From the IMG/VR virus record IMGVR_UViG_3300022074_000343, positions 1 to 25,394 of that record: a stretch of 25,394 bases of DNA; one strand, 5' to 3'. Source of the DNA: a virus. The position numbers were made by a program, and so were the translations under genes. The notes beneath the pieces were generated by a model, which saw only the letters and a list, made by a program, of their open reading frames with translations, made no database searches and had not been told where the DNA came from. Below, in pieces: positions 1,430 through 16,227 of the stretch. Every line of letters starts with the position of its first letter. Position 1 is the first letter of the stretch.

Positions 1430-4400
1430 ATGACATTAAAAACTTCATACATTATTGATTCTAACCTTATCTCTGGTTCTTCCGAGGGCTTTCGGGGTCT
1501 TTTTTCATCTGGTATTGTTATTAGTGGTAGTAGTGGTTTTTACGCAGGCACGCAAAGACCTGCAGAGCTTAAGAATGTTGAACTTCATAGAAATGATGTT
1601 AGAGTAACTTCTAGCGATTCTTCACTTTTGCCTAGCTATGGGTATAATGTCAGGCTAACAGCATATCAAGAAAGTTTTATTAATGACGATTTTTGGAGAT
1701 ATTTCTTAATAGGCGGCGAATACGCAGATACAACTTATTCATCAAAATTTGATGAAGTGGTTTATAGTTCGCATTTAATTGATGCAGAGTTGCCGTACAC
1801 GTCAAGAGACGCTGTTAGACTGCCGACGACCTTTAATAGCTCGCTTACAGTTAGCTCAGAGTACTATAATTATTTAAAAAGATATCAAAATTATATCGCT
1901 ACAGTGGGTTCGCCTTCCCAAATAGCTAACTTTTATCTTCTTAGTGATAGCTTACTACAGCGAACATCTACAGAAACTGGTCGCTATGCTTTTTATACAA
2001 ATGCCGATCTTGAAGATTATCTCAATATAGAGTTTGTAAATTCGGCCTCGGCGGCAATAGTTGAACATAATCACATATTGTCTGCAGACCCAACGGATAT
2101 TCTTTCTGAATACAAAAATAGAACAATAAATACAAACGATATTTCAAACAAAAAAATTGATAGTGATTTAGAATCATTTAAGGCTAACATGCCATTTGGT
2201 GCTAAAATCAATATAGACGCCACACACACCGACAGCAATCAATCTTATAGAGCTGCGATTTCTTCTAGCAATGCACAAGTTGATTTTATTAGGCACTTAA
2301 AAGAAACCTTTATGGGTGAAAACAATGTTCAAGTCGCTGAAAACAACTTTGTTATTCTTAATATAGCATCATCTGGATCGGACGGAATCTCATATGTGGA
2401 AGACAAAGCATCTGTCTCTACTGTCAATGTGAGATTGGTAGATTATATTGATATGCTATCACAAATGTCCTTAAACCCAATTGCAAAAAGCACAGACTTT
2501 CTAATCCTAGAGTCCTCTTCTTATCAAGAACTGGTAAAGCAAGCATCAGACCCAACCGGATTTTATAGTCTGCTTCAATCGGCAAGAAACGATCAAATTC
2601 TTGAAAACACAAAAACACTCATTGATAACAACTATAATTCAAAAATTTTGCAACTTGAAGAGGCTTCTGAGTTTTTTACTAATTTTTACAACAAAACGAA
2701 TTCTGAAACTTACAAAGAAATAATTGCCTATAGAGTAGAAAAAATTGGTGGATCACCAACCGGCGATAACAGACAAGACTCTGTCCTACAGAACTTCTGG
2801 TTCTTCAATAAATCTAATGTGATTGAATACTTTGATTCGCAAGTAAAGTATAATCAAGATTATACCTATAATGTTTATGCATATATGTTAATCGAAGGCC
2901 TTAGTTATCAAACAAAAGACCTAAGAACAACCAGAAAATTAGCAGAGGAGAATTTTGATAACCTAGATGGTTCAGGTTTGTTAGGAACAAAATACTGTTT
3001 AGAGTTCTATGATCCATATACAAACGATACTAAAGAACAACTTTTTTCTCTCAATAACAGATTAACAGGTAGCAAAAGTGCAATAGAAGCGGAAAGAGAT
3101 TCTATAATTGACAATGACATACCAGCACTCCAGGCACTAATTTCTGGTTCTTTGGCTACAATGACAACAGCATTTTCTACCACCGCAACAAGCCCACCAA
3201 ATCCTAAAGTAACCCTTACAGGTATGAAATACCCTAATGGAAGTTCACCATCTAGTGCCGCAGCGCCTAGGATTTATTCAACTTATTATTTCTTGCTTAC
3301 AGGTAAACCGTATTCACGAGAACCCTTAGCTGGAAACCAGTTGTTTAACTTTGCTGAAGAGCCAATCTATTACCAAACTGCTGCCGAACTAATAGATTTT
3401 CATTTTAACAGTTCAACGTCGGGGTCCGTGCCGCGCCCAATGATCATGCCAGAAATTAATGAGCTAGAAGGCCTGGATTACTACAGAGAATATTTGAACA
3501 ACTTGCTCTGGCAAGTGGACCGAGATGCCCAAGAAGCCGGCGACTCTGAGGGAGTTGAACAAATAGCTCATCTTTTCCTGGATTTTATTTATACCGATCT
3601 GACAACCGTTTATATACCTGAGATGCAAGCCCGTCTTGATAACATTCAAGAACTAAATAACCTTTATGTCTCAGCGTCTTTGCTGGACGCGGAAGCAAGA
3701 GCCCAAAACTCTCTTGCCACTAATGCACAAGTCTTTTCTTTTGAAAGATATATGGCCGATTTTACATTGGATATAGAGCCATCCATAAAACTAGTTGAAG
3801 TTCCTCTAGAACAAAAACTAATCACAATTATAGATAACCCACCTAATACCGCCTTAGTACAGCCTACATTTGTTAAAGATGCATCCAGCAAGCTTGTATT
3901 TAATCTAAAACACGATGTGTTTTCTTATAACAATTTAAATTATCCTGTAAGCATAACAGCACAAGATGAAGAGAGGAGAGATGATTACTTTAGAAGCAAA
4001 GATTACATTGACATTTCTACATTAAAAGAAGCCACCGTCTCTCCTGCTGAATCGGTAGAAATATTTAGAACCAACGAGAGGCCAACATCATATTCTGACT
4101 TTTTTGGTAAGTCTTTAGCTTTGAAACAGATGAGGGATGGTGTTGATAGTACAATTTACAATGAACAGGTTTTTTACATATCGGCTAAAGAAAACACAAA
4201 GTACTACTTTGCTTTTAGGTTTATAAACTCTAATGGTGTTGCGGGTCCTTTGAGTAAAATTTATGAATCTGAATTAATTAATGATGGTGGATATAGGTAT
4301 GCGAACTTTTCAATTGTTGACCTAGACGAGAAAGTTGACGATCAAAGACCCTCAGTAGATTTTAAAAAGCTAGTTGCGTTGATTCCAAAAACATCTCAGC

Positions 4401-6680: not shown

Positions 6681-8015
6681 GTGTCCTTCAAGAAGTTTTC
6701 AAAAAACGACAAAACATTAAGCACAGTCAGAACTTATCCGCATAATTCATTTTTTATTTATTCGGGCAGTGTGGTCTACAACAACCACTCAGTTGAGTCC
6801 GGCTCCTTTTCTAATGATGTTAAGGGTACTAGTGGCGGCATAAGTCTTTATGAATTTAATATTGACAAAGCCGGCACTACTGTGTTTACTGGTAGCGTAG
6901 GCAACGAAGATATTGGCACAATAACGACCGGTAAGAATCCGCCAATTATACCATTTGTTATAAAAGGCTCTTCTAACCAACTATTAAAATCAACAAATAG
7001 AAAACTAACATTAGTTGGTTTTCCGACAGCCTCAGATGGCAGTGCTGTTATTCAAGCATCTGGTCCCTCTGTAGACGTAAGTAGAGAATACGCTTCCAAA
7101 GAACGTGGTGATATCTTGACTGGCTCAGCATATACACTCAGCTCGTCTATTTTTAGAGAGCTACTGGTTCAGCCAGGAGTGTTAAGTTCGGCAGGAGTTC
7201 CAAACAGTCGTGAATTCTTCGCATTAAAAAACACATTGGATTTTTATGGAACGAGAAGCACTCATTATAGAGTTACTTCATCTTTTGGGAATAAAAATAC
7301 TCAAACTATAAATCTTATAAAGATACCAAAAATATTCTACGGAACTAAAATAAAACCAGGAAGTCTGTCTTTAAAGTTTTTCTATACGGGCTCCTTGGTA
7401 GGCGAGCTAAGTGACTCTAAGTATAACGGCGAATTAATACAGACAGGCCCAACAGGGTCAACTGGCTCAGGGTCTGTTGCTGGTGTTGTACTCTACGAAG
7501 AAGGGTTTATTCTACTAACCGGTAGCTGGGGACTGACACAAAAAATTAGCCTAAAATCAGGATCATCAGATGTTTCTGGATCTTGGTTATATTTTGGTGC
7601 AGGAGCAAATGATGGGATTGCTGCTATCTCGGGGATAGTTAGCTCTTCATATCACAGCGCATCTTTTGATTTATCTTTCAAGGGTATGTCAGATGTTCAT
7701 GTTAGTACCCTATACACACACGCCAGAAGAGGCGAGGTTAATTTTTCAAACAACCCAACATTTATTGAATATGGCCAAACTTATACATCACTGACTTCTT
7801 CTAACATTTACCAAGAAAACGATAAACTAACTATAAAGAACACAGTATCATCTAGCTTCTCAGATCATACTGCTGACTTCAAAAGACAAGTATACATATC
7901 AAGAATTGGCGTGTATGATAAAGACAAGAACCTTCTGGGTATTGCTACATTATCTAACCCAATCTTAAAAGAAGAAGGGCAAGATATCTCATTTAAACTA
8001 AAAATGGATTTTTGA
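6681..8015 (+). CDS. Virion structural protein, 444 aa, paralog of preceding gene (GTG start)
   Basis: It starts at GTG with a strong AGGAGG. The N-terminal 120 residues are specific to it. The C-terminal half repeats the architecture of the 345-aa neighbour: KIKPGSLSLKFFYTGS matches KKGSVSIRIG, VAGVVLYEEGFILLTGS matches VGGIIFYQAGIAIMSGS, VNFSNNPTF matches FNYSSNPTY, and IGVYDKDKNLLGIATLSNP matches IGLYNSQNELLAVAKLSEP. A small Gly/Ser/Thr run (TGPTGSTGSGS) sits between strands. It is probably an appendage or baseplate protein that arose by duplication. Its stop codon overlaps the next ATG (TGATG). Confidence 0.8.
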   Translation: MSFKKFSKNDKTLSTVRTYPHNSFFIYSGSVVYNNHSVESGSFSNDVKGTSGGISLYEFNIDKAGTTVFTGSVGNEDIGTITTGKNPPIIPFVIKGSSNQLLKSTNRKLTLVGFPTASDGSAVIQASGPSVDVSREYASKERGDILTGSAYTLSSSIFRELLVQPGVLSSAGVPNSREFFALKNTLDFYGTRSTHYRVTSSFGNKNTQTINLIKIPKIFYGTKIKPGSLSLKFFYTGSLVGELSDSKYNGELIQTGPTGSTGSGSVAGVVLYEEGFILLTGSWGLTQKISLKSGSSDVSGSWLYFGAGANDGIAAISGIVSSSYHSASFDLSFKGMSDVHVSTLYTHARRGEVNFSNNPTFIEYGQTYTSLTSSNIYQENDKLTIKNTVSSSFSDHTADFKRQVYISRIGVYDKDKNLLGIATLSNPILKEEGQDISFKLKMDF

Positions 8016-8353
8016 TGTTTCCAATTGTAATAGTGTCACCATTCTTTACAAAACTAATGTCAGTTTTTATTGATGTTTATGCGATTACACTTTTTCCATT
8101 TATTATTTCAAAAGAAAAGATGGACGAGGTAACCCTTAATCATGAAAAGATACACATAGAACAACAGAAAGAACTGCTTGTTGTTTTCTTTTATCTTCTA
8201 TATGCTTACTACTACATTGAAAATTATTACTTCTTTAGAGATACACACACAGCCTATATGATGATACCATTTGAAAGAGAGGCATACGAATACGATGGTG
8301 ATTTAGATTATCTCTCAAAAAGAAAAAGATATAGGTGGTTACATTTTAGATGA
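8015..8353 (+). CDS. Small HExxH putative membrane metallopeptidase-like protein, 112 aa
   Basis: I chose the ATG at 8015, inside the TGATG overlap with the previous stop, over the TTG one codon earlier. Residues 1-32 are hydrophobic (PIVIVSPFFTKLMSVF, YAITLFPFII). Next come H43-E44-K-I-H47 (NHEKIHIEQQKELL), an aromatic probable membrane segment at 54-72, and FEREAYEYD at 86-94, whose Glu could be a third zinc ligand as in gluzincin peptidases. I recall similar proteins (NHExIHxxQQxE plus FEREAY) as short hypotheticals in Bacteroidota and some marine phages. It is far shorter than known HExxH proteases, so activity is unproven. It overlaps the resolvase gene by ATGA. Confidence 0.65.
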   Translation: MFPIVIVSPFFTKLMSVFIDVYAITLFPFIISKEKMDEVTLNHEKIHIEQQKELLVVFFYLLYAYYYIENYYFFRDTHTAYMMIPFEREAYEYDGDLDYLSKRKRYRWLHFR

Positions 8354-8883
8354 TACTTGGTATTGATGTATCGACAAGCATTACAGGATTTTCTGTTATA
8401 GACCATACAGGAACGCTACAACACTTCAGCAATACAGATCTTAGAAAACACAAAGACTTTTTTGTCAAATCCATTCTTGTAAAAGAGCATTTACTTGACA
8501 TATACGAAAAATTTGATATAACTGATGTGTATATCGAAAAGCCATTTGCTTTCTTCAACTCTGGTGGTTCTAGTGCCGCGACTATGGCAAAACTACAGAA
8601 GTTTAATGGTGTTGTCTCTTGGATATCTTTTGAAGTATTCCAAGTAAAGCCAGAATATCTGACAGCAGGCCAAGCTAGGAAGTTGGTAGGTATTTCTGTA
8701 CCTAGAGGCAAAAAAGCTAAGAAAGTTGTTATGGAACACTTGATAGAGCACGAACCTGATTTCGAAGTTGAATGGACAAGAAATGGTAACCCAAAGCCCT
8801 GCTACTTTGATATGGCCGATGCTATCGTAGTTGCTAGGGCAGGCTTTGAGACGCAGAAGAAAGAGGTTGACGGGACCGCTTAG
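8350..8883 (+). CDS. RuvC-like Holliday junction resolvase, 177 aa
   Basis: The fold and acidic residues of the RuvC/RNase H superfamily are visible: D6 in ILGIDVSTSITGFSVID, E63 in VYIEKPFAFF, and D154 plus D157 in YFDMADAIVVA. A lysine-rich segment (RGKKAKKVV, 119-127) precedes the last motif. The length is normal for RuvC. Such enzymes cut four-way junctions so that branched replicating phage DNA can be packaged; T4 uses the unrelated endonuclease VII (gp49) for this, so this phage would have the alternative solution. It lies between the HExxH gene (ATGA overlap) and the primase gene, forming a small DNA-metabolism block within late genes. Confidence 0.85.
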   Translation: MILGIDVSTSITGFSVIDHTGTLQHFSNTDLRKHKDFFVKSILVKEHLLDIYEKFDITDVYIEKPFAFFNSGGSSAATMAKLQKFNGVVSWISFEVFQVKPEYLTAGQARKLVGISVPRGKKAKKVVMEHLIEHEPDFEVEWTRNGNPKPCYFDMADAIVVARAGFETQKKEVDGTA

Positions 8884-10878: not shown

Positions 10879-13217
10879 ATATTGCGCATTTAGCAGATAC
10901 ACATATCAAAAACCTGCGCTACCATAGTGATTATAGAAAAGTATTCAATTGTCTCTTTCGGATGTTGAAGGATGACAATCCTGACATTATTGTGCATTGT
11001 GGTGATATCGCCCACACAAAGACACAAATATCTCCAGAGTTTGTTGAGATGACAAGTTGGTTCTTGTCGTGTCTTTCTGACATTGCACCACTGTATATTA
11101 TTCTTGGTAACCATGATGGCAATCTAAAGAACAAAAATAGGCAAGATGCAATCACACCCATTGTCGATGCTCTTAGCAATGATAACATTCACCTACTGAA
11201 GAATTCTGGTGAAGTTATTGTTGATGATAAGGTGACACTGAATGTGTTGTCCATCTTCGATAGAGATAACTGGACTAAGCCTACAAACCTTGACAAAATC
11301 AATATTGCACTCTATCATGGCACTATCGCAGGTGCCAAGACAGACCTTGGTTATGTTCTGAACGAAGGCCAGGATGAAATTGATATTTTTAAAGATCACG
11401 ACTTTGCCATGCTTGGAGATATCCATAAGCAGCAGTCGTTAGATCCCGATGAGCGTGTTTGGTATTGTGGCTCCACAATTCAACAAAACCACGGAGAGGG
11501 TAAATACAAAGGGTATCTTTATTGGGAGATCAAAGGTAAAGACGATTGGAGTGTCTATCCTGTAGATATCTACAACCACCATACCTTTGAAACCATCCAT
11601 ATTGGCCCTGATGGCGAGATTATTGAAAGAGTTAACATTGAAGATAAGCGAGTCAGAGTTGTTGATACTCACGGTCACCCAAAGCATGTAATCAAAGAGA
11701 TACTGTCCAATCTTAGACAAAACAAGCCAAAATCGCTTAAATTCATACCTAAAAAGGCACAATTTTCCCTCAAGCAGGTAGAGAATAAGGCCCTAAATGT
11801 GCGCGATGCAGGGATCCAGAGGACTCTTTTGGCCTCGTTCTTGGCTTCTAAAGGGCTTTCTCAGTCACAATTTAGCAAGATTTATGAACTAAATGATCAA
11901 ATTAACACCGATCTTGACGAGAATCACCTTGCTAGAAACACAACTTGGGCGATTAAGAGCTTCAAATGGGCTGGTTTGTTCAACTACCAGGAAGAGTCCA
12001 GCTTAAATTTTGCTGATTATCGTGGCCTTGTTGGCATATTTGGTAAGAATTTTACAGGCAAGTCGTCTGTTATTGACTCCATCCTATTCACTATCTTTGG
12101 CACAACGTCAAAGAAAGAGAAAAAGCTTGTCAATGTTATTAACAATCACTGCAAGAAAGGCTTTGGCGAAGTTGTTATCCAGTCTGGCGACAGGTTGTAC
12201 ACAATTAGACGAGAGCTTAAAAAGGTCAAGAGGAAAGGTATTGATGCTGCTACATCTACTGTAAACTTTACTTACACCAAAAACGGCAGAGAGACATCCT
12301 TAAACGAGAACACAAGAGTTAGGACTGACAAGGCCATCCAATCTTACTTTGGAACCTATCAGGACTTTGCTATGTCATCACTTGCGTCACAGACCGACAG
12401 CTTAAACTTTATCTCTGAGGGTTCTACAAAGCGTAAGGAGATTGTCGCCAAGTTCCTAGACCTTGAGCACTTTGCCAAGAAGACCAAGCTTGCCAAAGAA
12501 GAAGCTAGCCAGACCAAGGCACTCGTCAGAAAGCTATCTACTCGCGACCATTCCGAAGCAAAGCGTAAACTTGCAGAAGAGATCAATGCTATCAAGGGCA
12601 AGCTAAAGCATCTTGAGATTGGTGTTAAATACTCAATGACGAAGAAACAGATTGAGTATTACAAGACTCTTGGCTCTGCGCAGCAACGTGTTGAGATTCT
12701 AAAAGCAGAGCACCAAGAACTCAAAGAGCTTGAGAGAAAAGCATATCTGTATGATTGTTACATCGAAGCCGTAAACACAAATGGCATCCCTTACCAGATT
12801 ATCCAAGAAAAGATTCCTGTCATCAACCAAGAGATAGCATCTTTTCTTGTTGGTGTTGTTGATTTTGATATCTACTTTGAGTGCAACGATAAGAATCTAG
12901 ATATCTTTATCAAGCACCCAGAACAAAACCCAAGGCCAATTGAAATGGCTTCGGGAGCAGAGAAAACTATGGCCTCTATGGCGATCAGGTTGGCTTTGCT
13001 GTCTGTCTCTTCGCTTCCAAAGGTAGATCTTTTTATTCTTGACGAACCAGGAACTGCTTTGGATGAGGACAATTTATCTGGTTTTATTGATATATTGGAA
13101 CTAATTAAGATGAATTTCTCTACAACTCTTTTGATCTCGCACTTGCAAAGCTTGAAAGATTCTGTAGATAAAGAAATAGCAATCCAGAACACCAACAAGG
13201 GAGCAAGAGTATTATGA
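10875..13217 (+). CDS. Single-chain Mre11-Rad50 (gp47-gp46 / SbcD-SbcC) fusion nuclease-ATPase, 780 aa
   Basis: I took the ATG at 10875, giving MNIAHLADTH, the normal start of an Mre11 fold; upstream in-frame starts add only the translated peptide region. Residues 1-230 are a calcineurin-like phosphoesterase with D8, H10, D44, N79-H80-D81, H148 and D182-x-H184. About 255-350 looks like the Rad50-binding helical part. From 360 comes the Rad50 ATPase: Walker A G390-KNFTGK-S397, signature SGAEKT at 693-698, Walker B LFILDE at 719-724, and H756 of the switch. The coiled coil between the ATPase halves is only about 95 residues (530-625) and has no CxxC zinc hook. In T4, gp46 and gp47 are separate and process DNA ends for recombination. 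Confidence 0.9.
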   Translation: MNIAHLADTHIKNLRYHSDYRKVFNCLFRMLKDDNPDIIVHCGDIAHTKTQISPEFVEMTSWFLSCLSDIAPLYIILGNHDGNLKNKNRQDAITPIVDALSNDNIHLLKNSGEVIVDDKVTLNVLSIFDRDNWTKPTNLDKINIALYHGTIAGAKTDLGYVLNEGQDEIDIFKDHDFAMLGDIHKQQSLDPDERVWYCGSTIQQNHGEGKYKGYLYWEIKGKDDWSVYPVDIYNHHTFETIHIGPDGEIIERVNIEDKRVRVVDTHGHPKHVIKEILSNLRQNKPKSLKFIPKKAQFSLKQVENKALNVRDAGIQRTLLASFLASKGLSQSQFSKIYELNDQINTDLDENHLARNTTWAIKSFKWAGLFNYQEESSLNFADYRGLVGIFGKNFTGKSSVIDSILFTIFGTTSKKEKKLVNVINNHCKKGFGEVVIQSGDRLYTIRRELKKVKRKGIDAATSTVNFTYTKNGRETSLNENTRVRTDKAIQSYFGTYQDFAMSSLASQTDSLNFISEGSTKRKEIVAKFLDLEHFAKKTKLAKEEASQTKALVRKLSTRDHSEAKRKLAEEINAIKGKLKHLEIGVKYSMTKKQIEYYKTLGSAQQRVEILKAEHQELKELERKAYLYDCYIEAVNTNGIPYQIIQEKIPVINQEIASFLVGVVDFDIYFECNDKNLDIFIKHPEQNPRPIEMASGAEKTMASMAIRLALLSVSSLPKVDLFILDEPGTALDEDNLSGFIDILELIKMNFSTTLLISHLQSLKDSVDKEIAIQNTNKGARVL

Positions 13218-13465
13218 AAATCACAAAAGAAACATTAAAGAAACTAATCAAGGAAGAACTTGAAGCAATGCAAGCTGAAGCATCTCTCGGTGAAGAGGAA
13301 ACTCTCTCAGAAGAAGATGCAGGCATGGTTGAAATCGATGGCAGTCAAGCAGAAAAAATCAAGAAGCTTGCCTTCCAACTATACAATGCCACCATGAATT
13401 TGCCAACCTCACCTGAGAATCAAGAATACCGTCGCAGCGTTGCTGATTATATGAAAAACCGTTAA
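13214..13465 (+). CDS. Class A leader protein, 83 aa
   Basis: The N-terminus MKITKETLKKLIKEEL fits the class A leader. After it comes an acidic stretch (LGEEETLSEEDAGMVEIDG) and a helical tail with the sequence AEKIKKLAFQLYNATM. Possible protease sites are MQAE before A23 and the LSE in the acidic stretch. The body is not recognised. The ATG overlaps the fusion nuclease stop (ATGA). It is the first of three leader genes in a row, and the shared leaders with unrelated bodies argue for a targeting tag rather than for common function. Confidence 0.75.
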   Translation: MKITKETLKKLIKEELEAMQAEASLGEEETLSEEDAGMVEIDGSQAEKIKKLAFQLYNATMNLPTSPENQEYRRSVADYMKNR

Positions 13466-13480
13466 AGGGGCTAAAGTAAT

Positions 13481-13726
13481 ATGAAAATTACCAAAGAAAG
13501 AATAAAGAGACTAATCAAGGAAGAGGTGAATAAGGAACTAGCCGCTGACTTTGTGGAAAACGATATTGTTGACTATCTGATTAAAATCGGATCTATCAAG
13601 GCTCCAAACGACGAGGTGGGCTACGACTCAGATATGGACAGAGTCTATCGTGATGCAGCAACATTTTTGGAAAAATTTGCAATTCCCTATTTGAGAGAGA
13701 TGGCAGATATTATAGAGAGAGCCTGA
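13481..13726 (+). CDS. Class A leader protein, 81 aa
   Basis: It starts MKITKERIKRLIKEEV after an AAGGGG ribosome binding site. This leader has no later LxE before Ala or Gly; the only such site is the IKE within the leader core (residues 12-14). The body has an acidic N-terminal part (ADFVENDIVDYLIKIGS) and a C-terminal helix (DAATFLEKFAIPYLREMADIIERA). I do not recognise it. It lies 15 bp after one leader gene and 2 bp before another, consistent with one transcript and stepwise duplication or acquisition of tagged genes. Confidence 0.75.
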   Translation: MKITKERIKRLIKEEVNKELAADFVENDIVDYLIKIGSIKAPNDEVGYDSDMDRVYRDAATFLEKFAIPYLREMADIIERA

Positions 13727-13728
13727 AT

Positions 13729-13977
13729 ATGAAAATAACTAAAGCAAGACTAAAGCAGATCATCAAGGAAGAGCTTCTTAAAGAGGCCGACTTTTCTGCG
13801 CTTCAAACCAAGCTCCTTAAGCACATCAAGGATAATCCAGGTACAACACTAAAAGGTGCTGTTCCCGAGCTTGATGGAGAAGAGCTTACTGGTGCTATCC
13901 AAAACCTGTTAAGAGATAAAAAGATAACAGATAAAGGAACGAAAGGCGCAAAATATTACCCAACTAAGGAAGATTAA
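13729..13977 (+). CDS. Class A leader protein with winged-helix-like body, 82 aa
   Basis: Leader MKITKARLKQIIKEEL, then L17-K18-E19 before A20, a textbook (L/I)xE-type site. Residues about 27-80 have the pattern of a winged helix-turn-helix: a helix (LQTKLLKHIKDNPGTTL), an acidic turn, a recognition-type helix (EELTGAIQNLLRDKKI), and a wing with a Lys/Gly-rich turn (TDKGTKGAKYYP). Cleavage would leave an almost bare DNA-binding domain of about 63 residues. Family assignment is by pattern, not search. If packaged, it could be a DNA-binding protein carried in the head. Its stop codon overlaps the ATG of the tubulin-like gene. Confidence 0.75.
   Translation: MKITKARLKQIIKEELLKEADFSALQTKLLKHIKDNPGTTLKGAVPELDGEELTGAIQNLLRDKKITDKGTKGAKYYPTKED
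13753..13776 (+). repeat. Leader-coding 24-nt identity, copy 1
   Basis: This segment of the winged-helix leader gene is identical over 24 bases to 24533-24556 in another leader gene. It encodes the KQIIKEEL part. The identity includes every third codon position, so it is not only protein-level conservation. The two genes lie about 10.8 kb apart and their bodies are unrelated. Confidence 0.75.
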
Positions 13978-15107
13978 TGTCAGAGTTTGATTTTATACCA
14001 CCGTCAATGCCAACGCCAGCATTTGAGCATAAAGACGAAAATAGATTTGATGAAGAATTAGAGGCCGAAGACTTCGGCCTTATGTCTGATTTTGGAATTA
14101 TGAATGAAGAAGTTAATGAAGATCTATTACCAGACAACAGTGCTCCATCATCAATTAACATTGGTTTCATGGGTGTTGGTGGCGCTGGAAATAAAATGGC
14201 TGCTGCGTTTATCGCTCAAGGTTTTACAAAAACCCTTCTCGTAAACACAACCGGCAAAGACATTCCAGACGAAGTTGAGGAACAGCATGTTGCTCTTATC
14301 CCGAATGCTGATGGCATTGGTAAGGACACAAGGCTTGGTAAGTCTGTTCTTGAAGGAAACTCTGCTGTTGTTGAGGATGCCTTGAGAACTAAGCTTGGTA
14401 AAGTTGACTGGCTATTTGTGATGGCAGGTGGAGGGGGCGGTACAGGCTCCTCAGTGGCCGCACTACACGAAGCTACCCAAAGATACATGAAGTCTGTACA
14501 AGCTCAAGGAGAGGTCGTCTACATCGTTTCCTGGCCCACTTCTCAAGAACTCTTAAACCCAACCATTGCTAAGAATGCACTTTCACTTCTTAACGACGTA
14601 TCTGAGTATCCTCATATTGTAATTGACAACGAAAGACAGTTGAGATTGTTGAGATCACAAGTCGGTATGCTCGGCCTTTATCCAAAGGCAAATACAGGAC
14701 TTGCCAAACTCCTAGGCCAAGTTCTCAAGCTATCCACAGAAGCATCTCCAATCCAGTCTTATGACAGCAAGGATTTAGAAACTTGCATTGGACAATCTGG
14801 TCGCATGTTCCTTGGTTCTACAATCATCAGAGACCCTGCAACACCCAAGCTTGGCTCTATGATTCTACAGAACTGTCTTAACGTATCTGCCTGTCCTCCA
14901 CCAAAGGGCAAGCCAAAGACTGGTACACTTTTACTTGTTGTGTCAGAAGATATGGTTAATGACCCAAGACTATCAAAACATCTAGAAGCTGCGGTTTCTT
15001 ATGTCGGTGGTAGGTGTGAAACTCTTTTCTCTGGTATTTATATCAGAAAGAACGTTCCTGGTCTTATTGCCATACTTACTATGGGTGGATTACCACAAGG
15101 AAGATAA
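13977..15107 (+). CDS. FtsZ/tubulin-family GTPase, 376 aa
   Basis: After an acidic, probably disordered N-terminal extension of about 58 residues comes the nucleotide-binding start INIGFMGVGGAGNKMA (60-75). The tubulin signature is GGGGGTGSS at 151-159. The T7-loop region, SYDSKD at 261-266, keeps the two Asp of the FtsZ NxDxxD motif at D263 and D266, with Ser for Asn, so GTP hydrolysis on polymerisation is plausible. Phage relatives such as PhuZ form spindles that position DNA or the phage nucleus; FtsZ-like forms are also known. There is no FtsZ-type C-terminal tail, and it ends TMGGLPQGR. A cytoskeletal role is inferred. Confidence 0.85.
   Translation: MSEFDFIPPSMPTPAFEHKDENRFDEELEAEDFGLMSDFGIMNEEVNEDLLPDNSAPSSINIGFMGVGGAGNKMAAAFIAQGFTKTLLVNTTGKDIPDEVEEQHVALIPNADGIGKDTRLGKSVLEGNSAVVEDALRTKLGKVDWLFVMAGGGGGTGSSVAALHEATQRYMKSVQAQGEVVYIVSWPTSQELLNPTIAKNALSLLNDVSEYPHIVIDNERQLRLLRSQVGMLGLYPKANTGLAKLLGQVLKLSTEASPIQSYDSKDLETCIGQSGRMFLGSTIIRDPATPKLGSMILQNCLNVSACPPPKGKPKTGTLLLVVSEDMVNDPRLSKHLEAAVSYVGGRCETLFSGIYIRKNVPGLIAILTMGGLPQGR
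15081..15107 (+). repeat. 27-bp direct repeat, copy 1 (end of tubulin-like gene)
   Basis: These bases encode the last residues MGGLPQGR and the stop codon of the GTPase gene and contain its neighbour's ribosome binding site (AAGGAAG). They match 15730-15756 at 26 of 27 positions. The two copies flank the J-domain gene. Confidence 0.85.
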
Positions 15108-15727
15108 TGAAGCTAATATTAGAAAATTGGAATGGCTTTTTGAATGAAAATCAAGAGAATTTGTATTCTATATTTGAATTAACGCCAACCGACAACATAG
15201 ATATGATTAAAAAAGCCTACATAGCAAAGGCAAAAAATGCTGGCTCTAATGAAGATGTAAGACAAAAGCTTGCGAACGCGTATGAAACACTTTTAGATCC
15301 AGAAGAAAAACAAGAATACGATAAAAAACTATACGCCGATGCTGTGTCTTTTAAGAAGCAACGCCCTGATGCTAGATTTAATGCAAACAACGGATTGCCT
15401 TTAGACGATCAAACAATGAAAAAATTAAAAGATATGGCAGGGACTAAAATGTCTTCTACAATGAAGCAGAGGTCCTCTGATGTAAAAGCAAGTTTTGACC
15501 CTGATACTGGTATGCCTTTAAGTGCCGAGGCTATGTCAAAATTGATTAAAAACGATCCCGAAAGAATAAAAACAGACATAATGCCGCTTGCTCAAAAAGT
15601 AATCAATAACATCAAGAATGACTATGGAAATCCAGTAGCTATGATGTTAGTTTCTGCTTTTCAAGTGGCAGACAATAAAGGTGAAATTCTTTTTGCACTT
15701 ATGCAGGCATCACAAAAAAATAAATAA
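15107..15727 (+). CDS. Class B leader protein with degenerate J domain, 206 aa
   Basis: The N-terminus MKLILENWNGFLNE is the class B leader, with L12-N13-E14 as a possible protease site. Residues 18-75 match the J-domain pattern (LYSIFELTPTDNIDMIKKAYIA, then LANAYETLLDPEEKQEYDK), but the HPD loop that stimulates Hsp70 is absent (AKAKNAGSNED is there instead). So it probably keeps a J fold without DnaK activation. Two internal repeats follow, near 91-99 (F-N-A-N-N-G-L-P-L) and 130-138 (F-D-P-D-T-G-M-P-L), each followed by an MxKL element. The gene is flanked by a 27-bp duplication, suggesting insertion. It appears richer in A than its upstream neighbour. Confidence 0.75.
   Translation: MKLILENWNGFLNENQENLYSIFELTPTDNIDMIKKAYIAKAKNAGSNEDVRQKLANAYETLLDPEEKQEYDKKLYADAVSFKKQRPDARFNANNGLPLDDQTMKKLKDMAGTKMSSTMKQRSSDVKASFDPDTGMPLSAEAMSKLIKNDPERIKTDIMPLAQKVINNIKNDYGNPVAMMLVSAFQVADNKGEILFALMQASQKNK
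15719..15726 (+). promoter_or_regulatory. T4-late-like promoter element AATAAATA
   Basis: AATAAATA at the very end of the J-domain gene differs by one base from the T4 late octamer TATAAATA. A start a few bases downstream would lie in the 27-bp repeat and give a short leader to the ATG at 15758. The bases overlap the codons AAT AAA TAA, so chance is a real alternative. Weaker than the 4591 candidate because the downstream CTATT extension is missing. Confidence 0.35.
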
Positions 15728-15729
15728 AT

Positions 15730-15756
15730 ATGAGTGGATTACCACAAGGAAGATAA
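15730..15756 (+). repeat. 27-bp direct repeat, copy 2 (relic of tubulin-like gene end)
   Basis: This copy could be read as the mini-frame MSGLPQGR plus stop, one residue different from the end of the tubulin-like protein. It supplies the AAGGAAG ribosome binding site of the leader gene at 15758. Its only mismatch with copy 1 is the fourth base (A for G). Confidence 0.85.
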
Positions 15757-15757
15757 A

Positions 15758-16027
15758 ATGAAACTTACAAAACAAAGAATTAAAGAAATTATCAAGGAAG
15801 AGCTTGAAGGTATGAATGAAGAGCCGATGGAAGAGCAAACTCTTCAAGAAGGTTTTGACATGAGCAACCTCCCACTGGTGATGGATGCAATTGCCAAAAT
15901 GGCAACCGATCCTTATATGGGTCCTTTGATTGCTGCTGTTATAGCCGGTATGCCAATCATGGCTGCTATAGAGAAACATATGCTAAGCAAGCTTCCACAA
16001 GATAAGGACAGCGGAGGTGGCATGTGA
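15758..16027 (+). CDS. Class A leader protein with hydrophobic segment, 89 aa
   Basis: The ATG at 15758 gives MKLTKQRIKEIIKEEL. The GTG in frame at 15734 would read through the duplicated repeat and is rejected. An acidic, Met/Glu-rich linker (17-31) ends with L29-Q30-E31 before G32, a good (L/I)xE-type site. After it, residues 53-71 are hydrophobic (YMGPLIAAVIAGMPIMAAI) and could span a membrane, and the end is Gly-rich. If cleaved, the product is a small, mostly hydrophobic protein. It is TGATG-coupled to the holin-like gene, so a link to lysis or membrane penetration is conceivable but unproven. Confidence 0.75.
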   Translation: MKLTKQRIKEIIKEELEGMNEEPMEEQTLQEGFDMSNLPLVMDAIAKMATDPYMGPLIAAVIAGMPIMAAIEKHMLSKLPQDKDSGGGM

Positions 16028-16227
16028 TGTCAACCGAACAGAAACAGGCATTGCTTGATAGAGGCATACAAAAGCTTACTTCACGCAAGCTTCTTGTTTG
16101 GATTGTAGCAACCGGCCTTATGGCTTGGGGTGGTCTTGAATCTGGAGACTGGGTAATTATCTCAGGTCTTTATCTCGGTGGTCAGTCCGTAATTGATGCT
16201 ATTGTAAAGCTTAAGGGACTTGAGTGA
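16027..16227 (+). CDS. Putative holin, 66 aa, two membrane segments
   Basis: Chosen start is the ATG at 16027 (TGATG overlap), not the GTG one codon earlier. The N-terminus is polar (STEQKQALLDRGIQKLTSRK). Two hydrophobic segments, about 21-35 and 41-57, are joined by a short turn (GLESGD) and followed by a basic end (KLKGLE). This hairpin layout and size fit small phage holins, which permeabilise the inner membrane at lysis. I recall similar KLTSRKxLVW proteins in marine phages. Next to it are two coiled-coil membrane proteins, supporting a lysis group. No endolysin gene is visible in the window, so the assignment stays tentative. Confidence 0.55.
   Translation: MSTEQKQALLDRGIQKLTSRKLLVWIVATGLMAWGGLESGDWVIISGLYLGGQSVIDAIVKLKGLE

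Follow-up and report, generated by a model that had tools for sequence, protein, structure and literature searches.

Short copies of a tubulin-like gene end as probable scars of gene swapping in uncultured T4-like phages

The 28-base repeat described here is probably one scar of a widespread swapping of genes in a group of uncultured T4-like phages, in which small genes with interchangeable N-terminal tags are gained and lost beside conserved genes, leaving or reusing short copies of the conserved genes' ends. The repeat lies in an IMG/VR record of 25,394 bases, the whole of which is referred to as the window; it is a fragment of a T4-like phage with a portal and a terminase of the T4 type. 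We put at about 0.78 the probability that the repeat marks cassette turnover at the boundary between conserved and variable genes, the tagged genes being gained by recombination at the ends of core genes.

A tubulin/FtsZ-like gene (13977-15107; PF00091, E = 4.5e-8; PHROG tubulin PhuZ, E = 2.4e-5) forms the left edge of the variable cargo block, and the duplicated segment is its 3' end. This and the other window genes and repeat elements named below are on the forward strand. Behind it are a gene for a J-like cargo protein of 206 aa (15107-15727), which matches DnaJ (PF00226) with 27.0 bits against a cut-off of 27.8, a tagged gene beginning MKLTKQRIKEIIKEEL (15758-16027), and a small conserved gene of the KLTSRK..W family (16024-16227) that is kept behind the block in relatives and is the right-hand anchor of the variable block. 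The other variable block extends from the Rad50-like gene to the tubulin gene and contains three tagged genes in the window (13214-13977, beginning at 13214, 13481 and 13729), whereas the related locus L002 has one different tagged gene there. The small genes in both blocks beside the tubulin-like gene are exchangeable and carry conserved N-terminal tags. Thirty-three loci with a tubulin-like gene were found. We note that this gene sits in a T4-type phage, yet it had no match in any named phage record searched, and nucleotide searches of named phages likewise gave none; the nearest named-phage terminase, that of Flavobacterium phage immuto, is 46% identical at best.

The initial annotation reported a 27-nt duplication with one mismatch (15081-15107 and 15730-15756; G in copy 1, A in copy 2). 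This is confirmed, and the match reaches one base further 5', giving 28 nt with one mismatch. Copy 1 (15080-15107) is the last 28 nt of the tubulin-like gene, TATGGGTGGATTACCACAAGGAAGATAA, and copy 2 (15729-15756) is TATGAGTGGATTACCACAAGGAAGATAA. The ungapped score of the repeat is 25 (+1/-2), the best repeat in each of 200 first-order Markov windows scoring 19 or less. The repeat is not frequent elsewhere, the pattern occurring just twice in the record, and for the terminal 30 nt of the tubulin gene the next best match there is 19/30, which is at chance level. Copy 2 also supplies, as had been proposed, a putative ribosome-binding site for the next tagged gene, the Shine-Dalgarno-like AAGGAAG (15746-15752) 5 nt upstream of the ATG at 15758. 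It had been described as belonging to no large reading frame, which is not wholly correct since it is inside a GTG-started 5' extension (15734-16027) of the next gene; the same kind of overlap is seen in L002 where tubulin meets its tagged neighbour. A promoter or hairpin role is unsupported, as neither repeat copy contains a sigma-70-like site and the repeat RNA does not fold clearly better than shuffled sequences (z = -0.2, -1.6 and 0.6). Ahead of copy 2, the segment TAAATAAATATG (15715-15747) is similar to 548-580, and the stretch at 552 holds TATAAATA, which resembles a T4 late promoter.

Comparison with the two closest relatives (L001 and L002; tubulin 95% identical) provides a history for this arrangement. 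Neither has the J gene, and each has its tubulin end only once, identical base for base to copy 2, with A where copy 1 has G. Both carry a tagged gene directly behind tubulin; the genes up- and downstream are otherwise collinear with the window. Because other clades also have A, the G in copy 1 is derived and copy 2 represents the ancestral junction, a displaced tubulin end. The J gene and both repeats are thus not common to all relatives, and the proposal that the J gene was inserted between the tubulin-like gene and its former neighbour is supported. The gene directly behind tubulin in L001 and L002 is tagged but is not the window's 15758-16027 gene. No relative was found in which tubulin is followed by the MKLTKQRIKEII... 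gene, as it would have been in the window immediately before the insertion; in the nearest case (L036, which is close in terminase) a 43% identical relative of that gene sits behind another small gene. That the J gene was gained, not lost, we infer from the relatives and from the ancestral base. The scar in the window is seen directly and its path is reconstructed; the event could have been an illegitimate crossover instead of one using a pre-existing repeat.

The start codon of the J gene overlaps the tubulin stop codon (TAATG). Its predicted product begins with an ENW-type tag, MKLILENWNGFLNE (15107-15148), which ends in L-N-E, a candidate prohead-protease site, and continues with a J-like domain and then FDxxTGxPL-type motifs. 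The HPD motif between helices II and III, a test of the DnaJ family, is deleted in the window protein, so its J-like domain should not stimulate DnaK in the usual way; the motif is intact in a relative in L019. Searches with peptide patterns in viral and genome contigs gave no relatives of the J gene, and the L019 gene, 48% identical over 120 residues, was later obtained by tblastn against the loci of relatives. It lies on the opposite side of tubulin and has an MKITK tag in place of the ENW tag; judging from this difference in position and tag, the J cassette itself has moved. We note that the FDxxTGxPL-type motif is repeated in a few cargo proteins (in the window, L302 and L019), the window J protein having two. 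An AlphaFold model of the J protein had a mean pLDDT of 44 and was set aside.

More extensive duplications are seen in a sister clade, whose tubulin gene ends with ATACTAAGTATGAATGGATTAGCAACAT. In half of its distinct loci (38 of 76) the locus's own tubulin end occurs two to five times, and in the other half there is no extra copy; the extra copies lie behind tubulin, almost always at the boundaries of tagged genes. Two contigs (G028 and G030) have five copies each between tagged genes, and in the 194-kb contig G030 all five are within 1.4 kb of tubulin, while a four-copy array with equal spacing is present in contigs from two samples (L237 and L243). The downstream anchor gene is reached in 42 loci; extra copies are present in 24 of these, and the mean block length is 2147 nt with copies and 1386 nt without. 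The copies have sharp edges: identity to the locus's own tubulin end is 0.3 just 5' of the extra copies and 0.48 just 3', and within the 28-nt repeat is, with few exceptions, 0.9 or higher from position 5 onward, although the repeat core was part of the search pattern, such that conservation within the repeat is partly ascertained and edge sharpness and breakpoints are less affected. In a third clade, in which tubulin ends with MNGIEKGK, no exact extra copies were found in 17 contigs, each having one copy; its cargo nonetheless varies, showing that tail duplication is not required for turnover. L114 contains what looks like a larger duplication scar (1-912), with a 126-nt fragment of the tubulin GTPase region preceding another gene and a full tubulin gene.

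Scars are also present at other core genes. The 3' end of the Rad50-like gene is duplicated around tagged genes in L304 (26/30 nt); L291 has such a duplication in the form of a longer, degenerate remnant, and 13/14 nt of the end are found behind the J-gene relative in L019. In L002 the 5' end of the terminase gene (54 nt, score 45) occurs twice around a tagged gene that is absent from the window; among the terminase loci examined, this scar is confined to the two contigs of the L002 lineage with enough upstream sequence. Repeats in G032 (at 4034 and 4240) and promoter-like and fibre-type internal repeats have no tie to tagged genes and were set aside, and in the early regions of G005 and G032 a promoter-like unit (TTGACA...TTACATTACAAGAGTAAGGAGAG) is repeated many times ahead of small genes.

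It could be argued that the tail copies are mainly functional junction elements, packing a stop, a ribosome-binding site and a start into 26-28 nt, and are kept for the translation of tightly packed genes, with recombination secondary. Stops and starts do lie inside the copies: 46 of 66 upstream cargo genes have their stop inside or at the edge of a tail copy, 32 of them at the copy's TAA, and about half of the downstream genes use an ATG inside the copy as their start; in the window, copy 2 provides the Shine-Dalgarno sequence. However, many tagged genes have no preceding copy (42 extra copies for 129 tagged genes in the 42 anchored loci), the sequence of the copies tracks each clade's own tubulin end, and the Rad50-like and terminase scars differ in sequence. 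The degenerate L291 remnant in particular makes a poor candidate for a functional adaptor and agrees with displacement by an insertion, and we think it improbable that translation is the main reason for the copies.

Copies of core-gene ends lie at cassette boundaries, and homology between phages starts and stops there. Homologous blocks start at 34 of 63 extra copies (54%) and at 3.2% of control positions, and run through 9.5% of the extra copies compared with 21.8% of the controls; these statistics use extra copies only, and raw HSP-end counts were excluded because the conserved tubulin gene inflates them. In the partner locus the same block lies about as often directly behind tubulin (146 pairs) as behind a later copy (148 pairs). 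Near-isogenic phages exchange whole gene blocks between two tail copies. In the pair L252 and L292, identity is 97.5% as far as the tubulin end and 98.7% from the start of the tail copy, but the stretch in between holds two tagged genes in L252, and in L292 an endonuclease VII/HNH-like gene together with a tubulin end that is recoded; similarly, G029 and G030 (94.5%, then 97.3% identical) differ mainly in the block between tail copies.

The L292 slot raises the possibility that a homing endonuclease cuts the 3' end of tubulin, gene conversion then bringing in cargo and a substitute tail. Its endonuclease VII/HNH-like gene (7913-8584) carries the recoded tubulin 3' end before it and has the displaced normal end behind it, and another gene of this kind is located upstream of tubulin in both L292 (6088-6750) and L252. 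The L292 contig might seem chimeric, but the L252 comparison shows that an endonuclease gene occupies the slot instead. Nevertheless, in tblastn searches L292 is alone among the tail-copy loci in having such a slot gene, and the window, where the insert is the J gene only, and most arrays have no endonuclease. Searches of 48 contigs for GIY-YIG and HNH_3 domains gave one GIY-YIG match and one sub-threshold HNH_3 match, and with a single match above cut-off these were rejected as general drivers. Homing is thus an unlikely account of the group as a whole.

The suggestion of the initial annotation that tagged genes may enter as cassettes through short repeats finds support in the arrays, the breakpoint statistics, the near-isogenic swaps, the relocated and re-tagged J gene and the Rad50-like and terminase scars. 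The favoured scenario is that a donor segment consisting of the 3' end of a core gene and a cargo gene recombines upstream of the recipient's own core-gene end, such that the core gene would stay intact and its old end would be displaced downstream. Recombination would probably follow the RecA/UvsX route of the phage, acting at short homology or microhomology; a RecA-family recombinase (RecA/UvsX) is present in nine of 12 large contigs, and T4 is known to duplicate segments at 6-10 bp of microhomology (PMC9391042). Breaks may trigger the process, given that one phage has an endonuclease gene in this slot. The old end, once displaced, would survive because it carries the ribosome-binding site of the next gene and, in the sister clade, often also holds the stop of the preceding gene and the start of the following one. 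Later exchanges may then use displaced ends as 26-28 nt of homology, and arrays with as many as five copies would result.

Integration into tRNA 3' ends leaves direct repeats that restore the gene, and the repeats here resemble these in restoring a gene's 3' end, such that site-specific recombination of an integron- or satellite-like kind might be considered, with the repeat as attachment core. This is very unlikely, as no tyrosine or serine recombinase domain was found in the 12 large contigs, the repeat sequence varies among clades and genes, and the cassettes are single small genes with no integrase. Every sequence is a metagenomic contig, but chance or misassembly is hardly credible given the score of the repeat relative to the random windows, typical reads longer than 28 nt, and the equally spaced array in two samples.

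The tags themselves are exchanged, with more than one kind in nine of 48 multi-member clusters of cargo bodies. An L/I-X-E motif occurs within residues 8-22 in 98% of K-tag proteins, a figure partly built in by a search expression that contains the motif, in 49% of ENW and 54% of RKN proteins (100% of the latter if M is allowed), and in 22% of control ORFs. A gp21-family prohead protease (PF03420) is encoded in nine of ten large contigs of relatives, a count separate from the window record. In T4 the gp21 site is L/I-X-E and N-terminal propeptides are capsid-targeting sequences (PMC9026906), and by analogy the cargo proteins, the J-like protein included, are probably packaged in the head and injected, with the tags acting like those of T4. 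As in the T4 internal proteins (PMC9026906), short N-terminal L/I-X-E tags are borne by small, variable, dispensable-looking proteins, and a gp21-family protease is encoded alongside; unlike them, three unrelated-looking tag kinds are swapped between bodies, and there are arrays with duplicated core-gene ends. In L286, L289, L302 and others, some tagged proteins look like chains of cargo bodies linked through LNE-like motifs, as though each were cut into several proteins. A broader proposal, to which we give about even odds, is that in these T4-like phages with tubulin the genes for injected proteins form a cassette array that can be expanded. Copies of the core-gene end at the cassette boundaries would provide 26-28 nt of homology and also act as stop-and-start adaptors, and cargo bodies and tags would be swapped independently.

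The mobile regulatory cassettes (PeSL) of T4-type phages, attributed to Arbiol in 2010, are reportedly shuffled as modules through short intergenic repeats. These share with our case the short intergenic repeats and modular shuffling in T4-type genomes; they reportedly combine an early promoter with a stem-loop, whereas the repeat here is a displaced core-gene end with no promoter-like site or strong hairpin. Short conserved boundary sequences have been proposed in phage mosaicism and are seldom visible (PMC3029335); here, too, homology at gene boundaries serves exchange, but its source, the end of the neighbouring core gene, can be seen and the copies multiply into arrays. The start-associated sequences (SAS) of cluster K mycobacteriophages, which are short repeats preceding gene starts and have been proposed as possible targets for recombination (PMC3203893), are dispersed along the genome and thought to be regulatory, whereas the tail copies are confined to the cargo block beside their source gene. 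Segmental amplification in T4 (PMC9391042) likewise involves T4-type recombination and duplications at short homology, although it occurs within a genome under selection, and here different genes accumulate between the copies. In the part of the literature searched, we found no boundary repeat derived from the end of a neighbouring core gene and arrayed with shuffling of tags and bodies.

Whether phage mosaicism arises by boundary homology or illegitimate joining is an old question that can seldom be resolved, because the boundary sequences are usually invisible. In these phages they are visible and can be traced to their source gene, and breakpoints cluster at them. The findings also suggest that phages hold a large store of tagged proteins, probably injected, which are easy to find by their tags.
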